64,000 nt of DNA from Desulfolutivibrio sulfoxidireducens (lineage in GTDB: Bacteria; Desulfobacterota; Desulfovibrionia; Desulfovibrionales; Desulfovibrionaceae): positions 1,919,501 through 1,983,500 of the forward strand of contig NZ_CP045508.1 of assembly GCF_013376475.1 (NCBI RefSeq), given 5' to 3'. The notes beneath the pieces are model-generated. The model did not search any database. It saw nothing but the letters and a program-made list of their open reading frames with translations, and was not told where the DNA came from. Below are positions 32,937 through 63,215 of the stretch, one piece after another (within the stretch, counting starts at the first letter, position 1; each line of letters begins with the position of its first letter). A program made the translations under genes and the position numbers.

Positions 32937-33102
32937 AAAATCCGTCCTGATCCTGGCGCGCCGGGCGGGAGCGGTTGCCAGGGCCGGTTCTCGCCCGCGT
33001 GGTTTCACTCCCCTTTGTCCCATCTCTTGTGCCCATTCCCCGGTTCTGGGAGGCATGGCCCCGCGACGCCCCGATTTCCGAGCCCGACGGGTGAGAAATA
33101 CC

Positions 33103-33131
33103 TTGACAATGTCAGGAACAATTTTTATTTA
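33103..33131 (+). promoter_or_regulatory. Sigma-70 promoter of perR-rbr
   Basis: TTGACA (33103-33108), a 17-base spacer, and TATTTA (33126-33131), followed 28 bases later by the perR start. Confidence 0.75.
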
Positions 33132-33144
33132 GTAATCATTCTTG
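33130..33144 (+). promoter_or_regulatory. Candidate PerR operator
   Basis: TAGTAATCATTCTTG keeps the TAATnATT core of the PerR box TTATAATnATTATAA (nine of fourteen positions) and lies immediately downstream of the -10 box, where binding would block transcription. It suggests autoregulation, but the match is partial. Confidence 0.4.
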
Positions 33145-33158
33145 TTGAGGAGTCGGAC

Positions 33159-33668
33159 ATGAAACATCCCGTCCAGCCCAGTCCACATCCTGAGGATTTT
33201 CGACGGATGTTCGCTGAAAACGGCCTCAAACTCACCCACCAACGCCTGGAAATCTACCACGAATTGGTGTCGGCCGTGGATCACCCCGGCGCGGAAACCG
33301 TCTGGCGCAGGGTACGCGACAGGGTCCCCACCATCTCCCTGGACACGGTCTACCGAACCTTGGCGGTCCTTCGCCAATACGGCTTGGCCGCGCGGGTGCC
33401 GGTGGACGGCGATACGGCGCGCTTCGATGGCAACGTCGCCCCGCATCACCACCTGGCCTGCGAATGCTGCGGCCGTATCGACGATCTGCCCCTTGAGGCG
33501 TTCGATCCCAGCCGTTTTCAGGATTCGGTGGCCCACTGGGGCCAGGTGCGCGATGCCCAGGTGGTCATCCGGGGCATCTGTCGCCGTTGCCTGGAGGCGG
33601 GCGAGCGGGATGCCTCCGGCTCGGAAAAGGATGAGGCCGGTCTTTGTTCCCCAACCCTTTTGATTTGA
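33159..33668 (+). CDS. perR: Peroxide-responsive Fur-family repressor PerR
   Basis: A 169-residue Fur-family protein. ATG 33159 has GAGGAG six bases upstream. The DNA-binding half has LKLTHQRLEIYHELVSA and PTISLDTVYRTLAVLRQYGL. The regulatory half has HHHLACECCGRIDDLP and ICRRCL, two CXXC pairs that form the structural zinc site of PerR and Fur. It is followed 30 bases later by rubrerythrin and then rubredoxin-like genes, the Desulfovibrio perR-rbr-rdl arrangement, so PerR is favoured over Fur or Zur. It would sense peroxide through its metal and derepress this operon. Confidence 0.9.
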   Translation: MKHPVQPSPHPEDFRRMFAENGLKLTHQRLEIYHELVSAVDHPGAETVWRRVRDRVPTISLDTVYRTLAVLRQYGLAARVPVDGDTARFDGNVAPHHHLACECCGRIDDLPLEAFDPSRFQDSVAHWGQVRDAQVVIRGICRRCLEAGERDASGSEKDEAGLCSPTLLI

Positions 33669-33698
33669 CCACACGACATCGAAAAGGAGCGCATACCC

Positions 33699-34193
33699 AT
33701 GTCCCGGACCGAAAAAGATTTGATGGAGGCCTTTGCCGGGGAATCCCAGGCCAACCGGAAATATTTGGCCTTCGCCGCAAAGGCTGACGCGGAAGGCTAC
33801 CATCAGGTGGCCAGACTCTTTCGCGCCGCGGCCGAGGCCGAAACCGTGCACGCCCACGCCCACCTGCGCGCCGCCGGAGGCATCGGGAGCACTGCGGACA
33901 ACCTCAAGGAGGCCATGGCCGGCGAGATCCACGAATTCAAGGAAATGTATCCGCCCATGATCGAACATGCCAAGGCGGAAGGCCACAAGGCCGCCGAACG
34001 GTCCTTCACCTACGCCAACGCCGTGGAGGCCATCCACGCTAGGCTGTACGAACAGGCCGCCGAACTGATGGATGCCCTCCCCGAAACAGACTATCATGTC
34101 TGTTCCGTGTGCGGATACACCTGTGAAGGCGAGGCACCGGATTCCTGTCCCGTGTGTAAGGCGGCCAAAAAGGCCTTCTTCAAGGTCGTGTAG
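33699..34193 (+). CDS. rbr: Rubrerythrin
   Basis: A 164-residue cytoplasmic protein that reduces hydrogen peroxide to water. The four-helix diiron domain has Glu and His ligands in AGESQANRKYLAF, AEAETVHAHAH, GEIHEFKEMYP and ANAVEAIHARLYEQA. The C-terminal rubredoxin domain has CSVCGY and CPVCKAA, which hold one iron. The length is slightly below the usual 190. AAAGGAG lies eleven bases before the ATG. It sits between perR and the rubredoxin-like genes, which probably feed it electrons. Confidence 0.96.
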   Translation: MSRTEKDLMEAFAGESQANRKYLAFAAKADAEGYHQVARLFRAAAEAETVHAHAHLRAAGGIGSTADNLKEAMAGEIHEFKEMYPPMIEHAKAEGHKAAERSFTYANAVEAIHARLYEQAAELMDALPETDYHVCSVCGYTCEGEAPDSCPVCKAAKKAFFKVV

Positions 34194-34274
34194 CGTTTGG
34201 TCAAGGCCCGCCCTTGTCGTTGTGCTACGGACCCGAGGGTGATAAGGCGGGTATTGATCGAAACGCGCATGATA

Positions 34275-34307
34275 CCGGGGGCTTCATGATACGCATGAGG
34301 CCCCCGG
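34275..34307 (+). promoter_or_regulatory. Strong hairpin between rbr and rdl
   Basis: A 14-bp stem with one T-G wobble (arms 34275-34288 and 34294-34307) and loop ATACG, then AATTGAAA. With no T tract it may be a message-processing or attenuation site between rubrerythrin and the rubredoxin-like gene. TTGAAA and TATAGT downstream could form a weak secondary promoter, but their spacing is too long to be convincing. Confidence 0.55.
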
Positions 34308-34395
34308 AATTGAAACACGGCGACTGGAAACATCTTATAGTGAAACGTACCCCCGATGTTGTCGGAAGAGACAACCCCAAACAAGGAGAAGCGTG

Positions 34396-34611
34396 ATGGC
34401 CGCTCCGGAAAACATGTGGCAGTGTCAGACGGTCAATTGCGGATATATCTATGATCCGGATCGTGGCGACCGCAAGGGCAAGATCCCGCCCGGCACCGCC
34501 TTCGAGGACCTGCCCGACGACTGGAGGTGCCCTATCTGCCGGGCCACGAAAAAGTGTTTTCGTCCCCTGGCCGGGCCGGGCTCCACCCAGGAAGCCTCCT
34601 GCGAAAAGTAG
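34396..34611 (+). CDS. rdl: Rubredoxin-like protein (CX4C type)
   Basis: A 71-residue iron protein. ATG 34396 is chosen over the GTG just before it because GGAG sits seven bases upstream. The first cysteine pair is CQTVNC, with four residues between the cysteines instead of the usual two, and the second is [13 protein letters not shown] and [16 protein letters not shown] are rubredoxin signatures. The wide CX4C spacing should alter redox potential. In Desulfovibrio this gene follows perR and rbr and is part of the peroxide response, so it likely donates electrons to rubrerythrin. Confidence 0.92.
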
Positions 34612-34613
34612 GC

Positions 34614-34940
34614 ATGGCCATGACCACCTCAATTTGCCCTGTGTGTGGCTACGTGCATGAAGGCTCCGTCGAAACCCTTTCCCCGGGCTGGAGTTGTCCC
34701 GCCTGCGGCTGTGCCGGGGACCGGTTCAAAGCCGCCCGACGCCGGGCGTCTCCGGTGACTCCCGCATCCTCCCCGCCTTCCGACCGATACCTGTGCCTGG
34801 CCTGCGGTTACGCCTACGATCCCGCCCAGGGCGATCCGACCCAGGACGTCCCCCCCAAAACCCCGTTTGCCGATCTTCCCGCGGACTGGCGCTGCCCCAC
34901 CTGCGGCGCGCCAAAAAATCGTTTCGCCCGCGAGGTTTGA
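34614..34940 (+). CDS. Double rubredoxin-domain protein
   Basis: A 108-residue protein starting two bases after the rdl stop, so probably translated with it. It has two iron-site modules: a short one ([10 protein letters not shown]...GWSCPAC, about residues 8-40) and a complete rubredoxin ([32 protein letters not shown], about 58-106), joined by a Pro/Ser linker. The first module lacks most of the canonical loop between its cysteine pairs. A two-iron rubredoxin beside a CX4C rubredoxin-like protein suggests an electron-transfer chain in the PerR response. An in-frame ATG at 34620 is an alternative start. Confidence 0.85.
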
Positions 34941-34948
34941 GTGGGAAT

Positions 34949-35204
34949 GTGGGGGGCGCCGCCCCCCACGCCCCCCGGCAGGGTGCTAAGCACCCTGCAC
35001 CCGTGTTACGCGGAGGGATCCCCCCGAGAGCGTAGCTCTCGGGGGGATCCCTCCGCGAAGCTCCAGGCGCAAGGCCTTCACGCCCTGTCCGGCGGGCATG
35101 ATTGCCTCCGTATCCCGTGATTTCCGGCGGTTTTTTCCCCAGCGCGAAGCGCCGGGGAAAAAACCGCCGGAGTCAGGGGGTCCGGGGGGAATGATTCCCC
35201 CCGG
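34949..35204. repeat. Train of five palindromes with three-base loops
   Basis: Between the convergent double-rubredoxin and AI-2E permease genes are five hairpins, each with a three-base loop. Arms: 9 bp (34949-34957/34961-34969, loop GCC), 9 bp (34978-34986/34990-34998, TAA), 23 bp perfect (35009-35031/35035-35057, GTA), 18 bp plus a 4-bp inner stem (35123-35140/35154-35171, inner loop GAA) and 10 bp (35082... given as 35182-35191/35195-35204, TGA). It may end transcription from both sides and looks like a composite of interspersed repeat (REP-like) elements. No gene lies within. Confidence 0.85.
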
Positions 35205-35230
35205 GCGGGGTCCGGGGCGGCGGCCCCGGT

Positions 35231-36319
35231 TCAGTCGCGGTTATCGAGGCACTGGCGGTAGGCCTCGGAGTAGATGGAGAGCATGACCATGGCCAGGCTG
35301 ACGATGAGGGGGCCGTAGAGGATGCCCAGGGCCCCGAAATATTTGATGCCGCCGAGGATGGACAAAAAGACGTAGAACATGGACATGTTGGAGCGGCCTT
35401 TGAGCAGGAGTGGCCGCAGGACGGAGTCGATCCCCGAGACGATGATCGCGCCCCAGGCCGCCAGGAACAGGCCCCATTCCCACTGATTGGTGAGGCCGAG
35501 ATAGATGGCGGCGGGAATCCAGATGATGGCCGTGCCCACGATGGGAATAAGCGAGGTGAAGCCCATCATGAAGCCCCAGAAAAGGGGCGGGATGCCCACG
35601 ATGTAGAGCCCGAGGCTTCCGGCCAGTCCCTGGCACACGGCGATGAGGAAGCTGCCCATGACCACGGAGCGGGAGACGTCGCCGAATTGTTTGATGAGCC
35701 GGTCTTCCTGTTCCTCGCGAAGGGGCATGAGGTATTTGATCCGGGCCAGCATGGACTCGCCGTCGCGGATGAGGAAAAACAGGATGAAGACCAGGATGAA
35801 GAAGTTGAGGGTCAGGCCCAGGGCGTTGCCCAAAAGGGTGGTGCCGGCGTCGAGGATGATCTGGCCGGACTGTTTGGACAGTTCGATCAGGTCGCCCTGC
35901 AGGTCGATTTTCGAGAGGTCGAGAAAGGGCGCGTGAGTTTTGAGCCAAGCCAGGTAAGGGGCCAAGTGTTCCTGGGAGAGCAGGGTTTCCAGGTCGTTTT
36001 CCTGGAGCCAGTTCTGTACGGCGGACAGGGTTTGCATGCCCTGGTTGAGAAGCGCCCCGGTGAGCAGCAACAGGGGCACGATGAGCAAAAGGACCACCAT
36101 GGCCACGGTGGCCAGGGCCGCCAGAGAGCCGCGATTCCGCCATTTCCGGCGCAGGAGGCTGAAGATGGGGTGAAACAGGGTGGCCAGCACGGTGCCCAGG
36201 ACGATGAGGTGGACGAAGGGCCGCAGAACAATGTAGGCCAAAAAAAGGGAGACCGCCAGGGTGGCCAAAAAAAAGAGGGTGGAAAACCGGCGTGGGTTGG
36301 CGTCCATGCCTGGGCTCAT
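35231..36319 (-). CDS. AI-2E family permease (UPF0118)
   Basis: A 362-residue inner-membrane protein with seven or eight helices and a long extracytoplasmic loop (about 90-160). FFILVFILFFLIRDGESMLARI, here FILFFLIRDGESML, and FTSLIPIVGTAIIWIPAAIY are diagnostic (second motif about residue 255). Members export or release signals such as AI-2, or move ions; the cargo here is unknown. The N-terminus begins MSPGMDANPRRF; the second Met is an equally good start. It is divergent from the rhomboid gene, 32 bases away. Confidence 0.9.
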   Translation of the reverse strand: MSPGMDANPRRFSTLFFLATLAVSLFLAYIVLRPFVHLIVLGTVLATLFHPIFSLLRRKWRNRGSLAALATVAMVVLLLIVPLLLLTGALLNQGMQTLSAVQNWLQENDLETLLSQEHLAPYLAWLKTHAPFLDLSKIDLQGDLIELSKQSGQIILDAGTTLLGNALGLTLNFFILVFILFFLIRDGESMLARIKYLMPLREEQEDRLIKQFGDVSRSVVMGSFLIAVCQGLAGSLGLYIVGIPPLFWGFMMGFTSLIPIVGTAIIWIPAAIYLGLTNQWEWGLFLAAWGAIIVSGIDSVLRPLLLKGRSNMSMFYVFLSILGGIKYFGALGILYGPLIVSLAMVMLSIYSEAYRQCLDNRD

Positions 36320-36351
36320 AACAGAGACAACAGCGCGGGTGAAGCGGATAC

Positions 36352-37371
36352 GTGGACGACGGCGGCGGTGAAAACAAGGGACATGCGCTTGGCGAGGCGC
36401 TTTCGCGGCTTGGCCGACGGCTTTTCCCCAGGCGGGACGTCTTTCGGGACATCACCGGGGAGGTGTTCGAGGATGGCGGGGCCGGTCTGTCGGAAAAGCG
36501 CGCCCGGGAGTGGTCCTTGGTGCTTTGGGCCCGAGGGGTGGCGCACAGGATGTATCATGACGGGGAGTCCTGGCGCATCGGTGTCCCGGCGCGGCTGGCC
36601 GGGCGGGCCGTGGACGAGATCCGGGCATACGTCCGCGAGAACGCCCTTGGCGAGGCCGAAACCCCGCGTCCGAAGCGGCCGGTTCCGGTCCGGTCCGTGG
36701 CCTGGGTCATGGCCGGGGTGGGTTTTTGTTTCGTGTTTCTGGTTTCGCATCCGGTGGTGTGGGGCAGGCGTCTGGATTTCGTGCGCATGGGCGCGGGCGA
36801 TACCGGGGCCATGCTGTTTTCCGGGCAGTGGTGGCGGGCGCTCACGGCCTTGACCTTGCACGCCGACGGCGCGCATCTTCTGGGCAATGTGGTGGTGGGC
36901 GGGCTTTTCATGGCCTTTTTGTGCCGCGAGGCCGGGGTGGGGACGGGTTTTTTTCTGGCCCTGGCGGCCGGTGCGGCGGGCAATGGCCTCAAGGCCGTGA
37001 TCCAGGGGCCGGGCCATCATTTTCTGGGTGCGTCCACAGCGGTTTTCGGGGCCTTGGGGGTCTTGGGGGGAATGGTCAGCGTGTTCGGGCTGCGGGGATT
37101 GTCCTGGCGCCGGCTGGCCCCATTCGGGGCGGGGCTTATGCTTTTGGCCCTTCTGGGGGCGGGGGAGGAGGAAAACGCGGGGAAGATCGATCTGGGCGGG
37201 CATTTTCTCGGCTTCGCGGCCGGGGCGATCTTTGGCGCGGCCATGGGCGCGGCGCGCCGGAGGGGCTGGCGTATCCCGGTGCTCGGCCTTGATGCGTTCC
37301 TGGGGATTTTGGCCGCGCTTACGGTCGTTCTCGCCTGGATATCGGCTTTTTTGGGATGGCGCTGGTCCTGA
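36352..37371 (+). CDS. Rhomboid-family intramembrane serine protease
   Basis: A 339-residue protein. The start is GTG 36352; no ATG fits better. Residues 1-110 are a soluble N-terminal domain. The rhomboid core at about 120-335 contains HADGAHLLGNV (the HxxxN of helix 2), HHFLGASTAVFG with the nucleophile Ser near 226 (GxSx motif), and GGHFLGFAAGA with the catalytic His near 284. The family cleaves transmembrane proteins within the inner membrane. The substrate is unknown; it is divergent from the AI-2E permease. Confidence 0.92.
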   Translation: MDDGGGENKGHALGEALSRLGRRLFPRRDVFRDITGEVFEDGGAGLSEKRAREWSLVLWARGVAHRMYHDGESWRIGVPARLAGRAVDEIRAYVRENALGEAETPRPKRPVPVRSVAWVMAGVGFCFVFLVSHPVVWGRRLDFVRMGAGDTGAMLFSGQWWRALTALTLHADGAHLLGNVVVGGLFMAFLCREAGVGTGFFLALAAGAAGNGLKAVIQGPGHHFLGASTAVFGALGVLGGMVSVFGLRGLSWRRLAPFGAGLMLLALLGAGEEENAGKIDLGGHFLGFAAGAIFGAAMGAARRRGWRIPVLGLDAFLGILAALTVVLAWISAFLGWRWS

Positions 37372-62090: not shown

Positions 62091-63215
62091 ATGACCATTC
62101 CCTTCAATTCCCTGCGCGCCCGCATCCGGGTCCCAAATATCGTGTCCAACTACCGGCGGCTGTGTCGTCCCGGCGGCGAGACCATCCCGGTGATCAAGGC
62201 CGACGCCTACGGTCACGGCCTGGTTCCCGTGGCCCGGGCCCTGTCCAAGGCCGGGGCGGCCACCTTCGCCGTGGGCTCAGTGGAGGAGGCCGTTGCCCTG
62301 CGTGCCTCCGGCGTCCCAGGTCGCATCCTCTCCCTGCTCGGTCCCATCGACGCCGATCAGTGTCAGGCCCTGTGGCGCGGCGATGTCATCCCCTTCGTGC
62401 ATCACCCGGATCAACTGCGCCTTCTGGCCGACGTCTCCCGGAACATGGACAGGCCTCTTGGCGTGGCCCTCAAATGCGACACGGGCATGCGTCGCCTGGG
62501 ATTCACCCGCGGGGACGCGGCCGAGGCCGCACGGATCATCGCCGCAACTCCGGGTCTGAACCTGGCCATGCTCAGTTCCCACCTGGCCACAGCCGACGAC
62601 CCCGGGGATTTCGACTATGTGGAGGCCCAGATCCAGGAATTCACCGCCATCCGGGGGCAACTCCTGGCGCTCGGACTTTCCTTTCAAACCAACCTGGCCA
62701 ACTCCGCCGCCGTCCTGGCCCATCCCGAGGCCCACTTCGATTCCCGGCGCGTCGGCATCTCCCTCTACGGCGGCAATCCCTTCCAGGGGACGCCCCTGGC
62801 CCACCTGGGACAGGGGCTTGTTCCGGCCATGGAGGTGGCCACGCGTATCGTGTCCGTGCACGACCTGGCCGCCGGACAGTCCGTGAGCTACGGCCGGACC
62901 TTCACCGCGCCCACGGATACGCGCATCGCTGTGGTGGCCGCCGGATACGCCGATGCCTACGGGCGAAGCCTCTCCAATTCGGGATTCATGTACCTGCGCG
63001 GCGTCCGCGTTCCCATCCGCGGCCGGGTATGCATGCAGTTGACCGCCGTGGAGGTTTCCGAGGTTCCGGACGTCAGGCCCGGCGAGGAAATCCTGCTTCT
63101 GGGCGGTCAGGGCGAAAACGCCATCACCCCCGACGATCTGGCCGAATGGTGGGGGACCATCTCCTACGAGGTTTTGTGTCTGCTGGGCCTTAATCCCCGC
63201 GAATACGTTGAGTAG
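62091..63215 (+). CDS. alr: Alanine racemase
   Basis: A 374-residue PLP enzyme that makes D-alanine for peptidoglycan. ATG 62091 begins the family-like sequence; upstream in-frame codons do not match. The PLP lysine is K36 in PVIKADAYGHGL. DTGMRRLGF, LSSHLATADD, VGISLYGGNPF and the catalytic Tyr in SVSYGRTFTAP are conserved. It is divergent from mutL with about 157 bases between starts. D-alanine produced here relates to the D-peptide system at 19.1 kb only by general metabolism. Confidence 0.96.
   Translation: MTIPFNSLRARIRVPNIVSNYRRLCRPGGETIPVIKADAYGHGLVPVARALSKAGAATFAVGSVEEAVALRASGVPGRILSLLGPIDADQCQALWRGDVIPFVHHPDQLRLLADVSRNMDRPLGVALKCDTGMRRLGFTRGDAAEAARIIAATPGLNLAMLSSHLATADDPGDFDYVEAQIQEFTAIRGQLLALGLSFQTNLANSAAVLAHPEAHFDSRRVGISLYGGNPFQGTPLAHLGQGLVPAMEVATRIVSVHDLAAGQSVSYGRTFTAPTDTRIAVVAAGYADAYGRSLSNSGFMYLRGVRVPIRGRVCMQLTAVEVSEVPDVRPGEEILLLGGQGENAITPDDLAEWWGTISYEVLCLLGLNPREYVE

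Follow-up and report, generated by a model that had tools for sequence, protein, structure and literature searches.

The window, by which we mean the whole stretch of 64,000 nucleotides that was analysed, carries at 34949-35229 an element lying between two convergent genes. To its left is a gene for a protein with rubredoxin domain(s) (34527-34940, + strand, start approximate), which ends 9 bp before the first hairpin, and to its right is a gene for an AI-2E family transporter (35231-36319, - strand), whose stop codon (35231) abuts the element. Upstream of the element, at 33015-34940, a Fur-family regulator, a rubrerythrin and the two-domain rubredoxin-like gene stand in a row that, judged from the gene products predicted, probably forms a cluster of the oxidative-stress type. 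The sole named relative of the flanking gene that has an orthologous locus belongs to a Desulfovibrionaceae metagenome-assembled genome (MAG) and is 83% identical.

Architecture of the element

The first-pass annotation of this DNA had described five consecutive perfect palindromes with three-base loops at 34949-35204, with perfect arms of 23 and 18 bp. Both the window sequence and an inverted-repeat listing place five palindromes there, with some changes to their description. The terminal hairpin of the left unit, H1 (34949-34969), and its second tail hairpin, H2 (34978-34998), each have perfect 10-bp arms and a loop of 1 nt, and they are followed by H3 (35009-35057), the long variable hairpin of the left unit, with the perfect 23-bp arms reported and the 3-nt loop gta. 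The long variable hairpin of the right unit, H4 (35123-35171, loop gaa), also has 23-bp arms but contains one A.C mismatch, and the 18-bp arm of the earlier description is merely the outer part of this stem. H5 (35182-35204; CCGGGGGGAAT g ATTCCCCCCGG), the first tail hairpin of the right unit, has perfect 11-bp arms and again a 1-nt loop, so that once the arms are fully extended three-base loops are found in H3 and H4 only. The full element also includes a sixth hairpin absent from the earlier list, H6 (35212-35229; CCGGGGC ggcg GCCCCGG), which is the second tail hairpin of the right unit and is paired in the alignment of the covariance model introduced next.

The order of the parts, tail-H3-spacer-H4-tail, is that of two inverted copies of one unit, each made of a long hairpin, a linker and two tail hairpins. 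Our covariance model R1, built from 16 H4-plus-tail copies out of 26 in-register copies, matches the right unit at 35119-35229 on the + strand (123.3 bits, E 1.4e-24; the training set includes this unit) and the left unit at 35061-34951 on the - strand (65.7 bits, E 2e-12; the training set includes no left unit), and because the two matches lie on opposite strands we regard the units as inverted. The spacer that separates H3 from H4 (35062-35118) is defined by position and serves below as a yardstick of divergence. The folding energy of the palindromic segment is -226.7 kcal/mol against a mean of -150.8 for shuffled sequences (z -13.6, with 0 of 200 shuffles as low), and the other strand folds at z -14.1, which bears out the earlier judgement that such regularity is unlikely by chance. 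Runs of three or more G occur in the tails at 35204-35218 (GGGCGGGGTCCGGGG), and a quadruplex is conceivable there. A search of Rfam with window positions 34000-36500 gave no match reaching the gathering score and nine below threshold, several of them to microRNA families. A literature search, with most subscription journals outside its reach, listed no paper that appears to describe this element.

Copies and distribution

A blast search of the element against its own genome (G000, a single contig of 4,155,851 bases) gave 101 matches, including eight other places covering most of its length. When up to 3 mismatches are allowed, the tail core GGGGTCCGGGGGRAATGATTYCCCCCGG is present at 73 places there, and at 43 of them it is exact; a reversed control pattern occurs at none. 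The single-copy sequence that had been held out as the alternative to a repeated element is thereby excluded. The two congeners used for comparison, G001 and G002, have 21 and 52 tail-core sites respectively. Across copies the tail and the linker are conserved and the sequence of the long hairpin is different each time; the unit can be described as a perfect hairpin of about 20-24 bp of almost any sequence, a linker of about 6 nt and two conserved G-rich tail hairpins, with one unit or two, inverted relative to each other, in each element. All 13 of the G000 loci tested, which were picked for a two-sided look, gave R1 matches on both strands. Some G000 copies have the left unit replaced by a different, T/A-rich hairpin (GGCCAGGGGGGAAACC...), and in other genera a single central hairpin often serves both tails, which shows as R1 matches that overlap on the two strands (L228, L238, L240, L241 and L249). 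Beside the element at L015 (G000, about 395949-396130) the terminal tail hairpin (ACCGGGGCTGCCGCCCCGGACCTGCGA) stands in tandem in five or more copies.

Matches to R1 at E <= 0.001 were found in 77 of 149 genomes of the family Desulfovibrionaceae, representing 27 of its 44 genera. Across the phylum R1 matched 6 of 297 genomes, five from the family and the sixth, G394, from outside it. The two matches in G394, which belongs to another family of the phylum, lie at C50:16075-16184 (L256, E 2.4e-6) and C36:26-136 (E 1.7e-4) and may reflect transfer, mis-binning or chance. Searches at blastn sensitivity gave no match in 72,556 plasmid records or in 50,697 phage records; one viral contig, IMGVR_UViG_2519899530_000001 (L225), holds one exact copy of the tail core. 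Many of the matches in G001 and G013 are less than 100 bases from contig ends, and the element seems to break assemblies.

Position relative to genes

Of the 73 sites in G000, 71 could be placed between called genes, 17 of them between convergent and 54 between tandem genes with none between divergent genes, the calls being rough ones from a home-made codon-usage caller that overlooked the rubredoxin gene next to the window element. The corresponding baseline among the 45 gene pairs of the window is 7 convergent, 30 tandem and 8 divergent. The placed sites are thus downstream of genes; in two cases the end of a called gene runs into the tail. Among tandem sites with an H4, 21 are oriented with the genes and 11 against them. 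The convergent setting of the window copy, which the first-pass annotation had proposed to look for elsewhere, recurs at those 17 sites, but most copies are between tandem genes. The element is multicopy, family-restricted, placed at 3' ends and built of inverted units.

A bidirectional terminator was among the functions suggested for this locus, and the element shares with Rho-independent terminators its GC-rich hairpins at gene ends and, in the window, its place between convergent genes. It differs from them in having stems of over 20 bp and no T-run after its hairpins, and a simple terminator scan of 34500-35700 found one site, outside the element, where shuffled sequences averaged 1.0. The missing T-run and the lack of a terminator-like site inside the element lead us to reject a canonical intrinsic terminator; a bidirectional terminator is possible, with the prevalence of tandem settings counting against it.

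Concerted change of the two arms

The 125 tail sites of G000 and G002 yielded 82 (46 and 36) with an accepted H4 beside the tail, the other 43 being dropped for an H4 score under 14 or a distance of more than 15 nt from the tail; selection by pairing score under-counts decayed hairpins, and about a dozen of the dropped sites have weaker or broken ones. The 82 hairpins have 82 distinct 5' arms and 65 of them are perfect, with a total of 18 mismatches in 1878 pairs (5 G.T, 9 A.C and 4 other, hence 14 of transition types), so that on the canonical strand G-U is not preferred. Stem length is 20-24 bp in 67 of the 82, and pairing, counted from the tip, stays at 97-99% over 20 bp, drops to 60% at 21-25 bp and is about 40% further out.

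The 26 copies that can be aligned in register have 97.4% of their cells paired, although an aligner gap in 2 of the 26 rows loses those rows a few pairs. Both sides have changed at 19 of 22 pairs and one side only at none, and covariation scores 0.871, where shuffled alignments score 0.198 and slid partners no more than 0.132. The invariant pairs are the C-G at the base and two pairs at the tip (GC/GC), and a one-sided change to G-U occurs in just 2 of 570 cells, both at the outermost pair. A tail hairpin pair that alternates between R and Y shows 6 G.T and 3 A.C intermediates, with no clear sign either way. The same pattern extends to other genera, where all hairpins at 25 loci are different, 18 are perfect and there are 7 mismatches in 547 pairs; these loci, 25 of 26 printed (L243 was left out, having no stem assigned), are best hits of the structure model and are hence biased toward good pairing. 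This joint change of the two arms between copies was not visible in the window sequence on which the first-pass annotation rested, and that reading is, as a whole, partly supported.

Orthologous loci allow the change to be measured against the unpaired spacer. Both flanks could be mapped to fetched stretches of G000 for 27 sites of G002, of which 22 are colinear and 5 join distant places in G000. Of the colinear loci 12 were used here, and two loci with a single mapped flank bring the number of orthologous pairs to 14; at one of these two (3225782/1800999) the stems score below the cut applied to the 82. The 10 other colinear loci were omitted for having no adjacent hairpin in at least one genome. 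The flanks of the pairs are mostly 74-90% identical. Over the 14 pairs, 229 stem pairs are unchanged, 47 differ on both sides and 6 on a single side, and 65 more are paired gaps; with ungapped alignment from the tip the counts are 122 both-sided and 5 one-sided among 299. Divergence is 0.188 per stem pair, 0.232 in the spacer and 0.066 in the tail, and the ratio of stem pair to spacer is 0.81 (bootstrap 0.66-0.98), an overestimate if the spacer is partly constrained. A recent subfamily of ten copies in G002 gives 134 both-sided against 7 one-sided changes over 45 comparisons, with divergences of 0.145, 0.171 and 0.013 for stem pair, spacer and tail. Because all these sites share ancestry, none of the counts given here represents independent events. 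Ordinary terminators in the orthologous flanks, taken as a control, provided 3 cases with 1 both-sided and 5 one-sided changes, too few to be of use. The two arms change in concert at about the rate of a single site, and from these alignments each stem pair appears to evolve nearly like one unpaired base.

The loops show a regularity of their own. The 48 three-base loops consist of purines alone in 21 cases and of pyrimidines alone in 18, with 9 mixed. Uniform loops make up 39 of 48 (81%) against the 25% expected under independence of sites, and 0 of 20000 shuffles reached the observed share, with the kinship of the copies weakening the statistic. The two classes would be explained by inversion of the whole loop in one step, single changes being expected to leave many mixed loops. 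No pair with identical arms and an inverted loop was found among the 14 G000/G002 pairs.

Origin of the paired changes

We put at roughly 60% the probability that this is a REPIN/BIME-like dispersed non-coding element of one family whose stems are homogenised at the DNA level by template switching. One arm would be re-copied from the other during replication, by fold-back or by switching from strand to strand ("quasipalindrome correction"), and the same re-copying would also flip the loop. Homogenised arms together with an inverted spacer are given as the signature of template switching in yeast in PMC8604942, and PMC8794818 proposes that template switching creates and maintains RNA stems. Unbiased arm-to-arm copying, with two mutable sites per pair and half of the mutations kept, would be expected to give a ratio of stem-pair to single-site divergence of about 1.

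A doubtful alternative is that the stems are RNA structures, such as a 3'-end stabiliser, a processing site or a terminator, and that selection on the RNA has fixed the paired changes as ordinary compensatory mutations. The confinement of the sites to positions downstream of genes (0 of 71 divergent), the narrow range of stem length with a conserved tip and base, and the extreme folding energy would all agree with it. Compensatory selection on RNA should nevertheless give slower change and G-U states, since its route passes through poor intermediates, and the stems show pair changes near the single-site rate of the spacer and an interior almost free of G-U, which is not favoured over A.C (5 against 9) and is reached on one side in only 2 of 570 cells. 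The mixed orientation to tandem genes (21 same and 11 opposite at sites with H4) also speaks against an RNA role, and the apparent inversion of the loops is left unexplained by it.

Another explanation for the differing arms at orthologous loci is that ectopic recombination or gene conversion has exchanged whole elements from locus to locus. Some movement of this kind is suggested by orthologous loci with quite different hairpins (522128 against 2153202 in G002), by the spread of the ten-copy subfamily in G002 and by the 5 of 27 testable G002 loci that join two distant G000 regions. An element or its left-type hairpin is present at both G000 places for four of these five, and at the fifth (645812) no element is seen near window position 63215; one of the five (1962012) rests on a flank of 72% identity. 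In G002 some 420 kb separate the two flanks of the window copy itself, and an element stands next to each. As the explanation of the paired changes, swapping is very unlikely, for it cannot by itself create new complementary pairs, and alone it would give identical arms at several loci where all 82 hairpins differ. None of three G002 loci tested had a clean empty site in G000, so that no target-site duplication could be defined; L120 has a shorter relic in G000, L177 retains its left hairpin there, and the G000 counterpart of L190 has other sequence in between.

We give little credence to a classical REP/REPIN, a non-autonomous mobile element that depends on a TnpA-REP/Y1 (HUH) transposase for its movement. 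Such an element would fit the inverted pair of palindromic units, the high copy number, the intergenic placement and the locus L177, where G000 keeps the left hairpin only and lacks a right part present in G002, but against it stand the absence of any match to Y1_Tnp (PF01797) in G001 or G002, both element-bearing, a lone frame-split locus in G000, the lack of a GTAG guide and stems that do not conserve their sequence as REP stems do. The G000 locus (G000:C1:3512609-3512966, L127) is divided between two frames, has IS200-like hairpin ends and looks like an ordinary IS200. With the gene split there and no PF01797 match in the two congeners, TnpA-REP is not needed for the elements today; we reject it as the general agent, and the proposal that such a transposase maintains the set finds no support.

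Comparison with known elements

The term composite REP-type element, also offered by the first-pass annotation, remains apt for the layout, the copies being dispersed, intergenic, at gene 3' ends and formed of an inverted pair of palindromic units. REP, BIME and REPIN elements are short palindromic units between genes, often two of them inverted around a linker, and certain REPs form perfect palindromes closed by 3-nt loops, according to PMC8266576; the 71 of 73 G000 sites between called genes agree with the many dispersed extragenic palindromic copies of a REP/BIME. The same paper defines REPs by a conserved GTAG tetranucleotide 5' of the palindrome, and no GTAG precedes the stem in the window sequence or in the 26 aligned copies. 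REPs and REPINs with a RAYT differ from our element, which lacks the GTAG, has no Y1 transposase in the congeners, adds two tail hairpins to each unit and leaves the stem sequence free. By two of these features, the GTAG and the Y1 gene, the element would not be classed as a RAYT-type REP.

Fungal mitochondrial genomes carry double-hairpin elements. The repetitive hairpin elements of sponge mitochondria are likewise dispersed, intergenic and divergent in structure and composition (PMC2800124); mitochondrial hairpin elements differ in being organelle-borne, and no shared sequence is known.

Quasipalindrome correction and template-switch mutations, described from E. coli, yeast and rRNA genes, resemble the present case in their perfect-copy arms and, if the purine and pyrimidine loops reflect inversion, in the inverted loop (PMC8604942 and PMC8794818). 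They are known as sporadic mutations or have been inferred within genes, whereas here the end states are seen in tens of copies per genome and in many genera.

Constraint, copying and the role of the element

What the sequences show are end states, not the switching events themselves. At L190 (G002:C1:3685300-3688300, about 1334-1800) the spacer contains another long perfect hairpin (CCGGCCCAGTGTGTGCGGCGC gca ...), beside a near-duplicate of the flanking spacer, and it is possible that this hairpin is newly made. In the preferred reading the tip (GC/GC), the base (CG), the length of the stem and the tails are under constraint, and the sequence of the stem is left free. The narrow stem length and sharp boundary are not predicted by free template switching alone and suggest selection on structure, and selection for near-perfect stems could purge intermediates. 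Recombination between copies may occur as well, and they may mark some of the chromosome's junctions, as the distant joins hint. A role of the hairpins at gene ends is a guess from their position: on either strand they might act as 3'-end barriers, stabilising or terminating transcripts.

A fuller version of this account, which we advance tentatively, is that an ancient, family-wide element is kept by selection or by a structure-reading enzyme that demands a perfect hairpin of about 22 bp, of any sequence, beside a conserved G-rich tail, and that self-templated (fold-back) DNA synthesis replaces the whole stem at once, each base pair evolving as one site. If true, the family would possess a palindromic element that is sequence-free and persists through copying instead of compensatory selection. 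The evolution of long perfect stems that never pass through a broken state is an old question, mostly studied in rRNA or through sporadic mutations. Here tens of replicate stems per genome, with matched unpaired spacers as a clock, make the rate of arm-to-arm copying measurable, and such replicates are available in two closely related genomes and in many further genera. For the Desulfovibrionaceae, the element seems to be a feature of gene ends that is specific to the family and has gone unlisted, with copies at some synteny junctions, and it may matter for annotation, for assembly breaks and for the biology of 3' ends in these bacteria.
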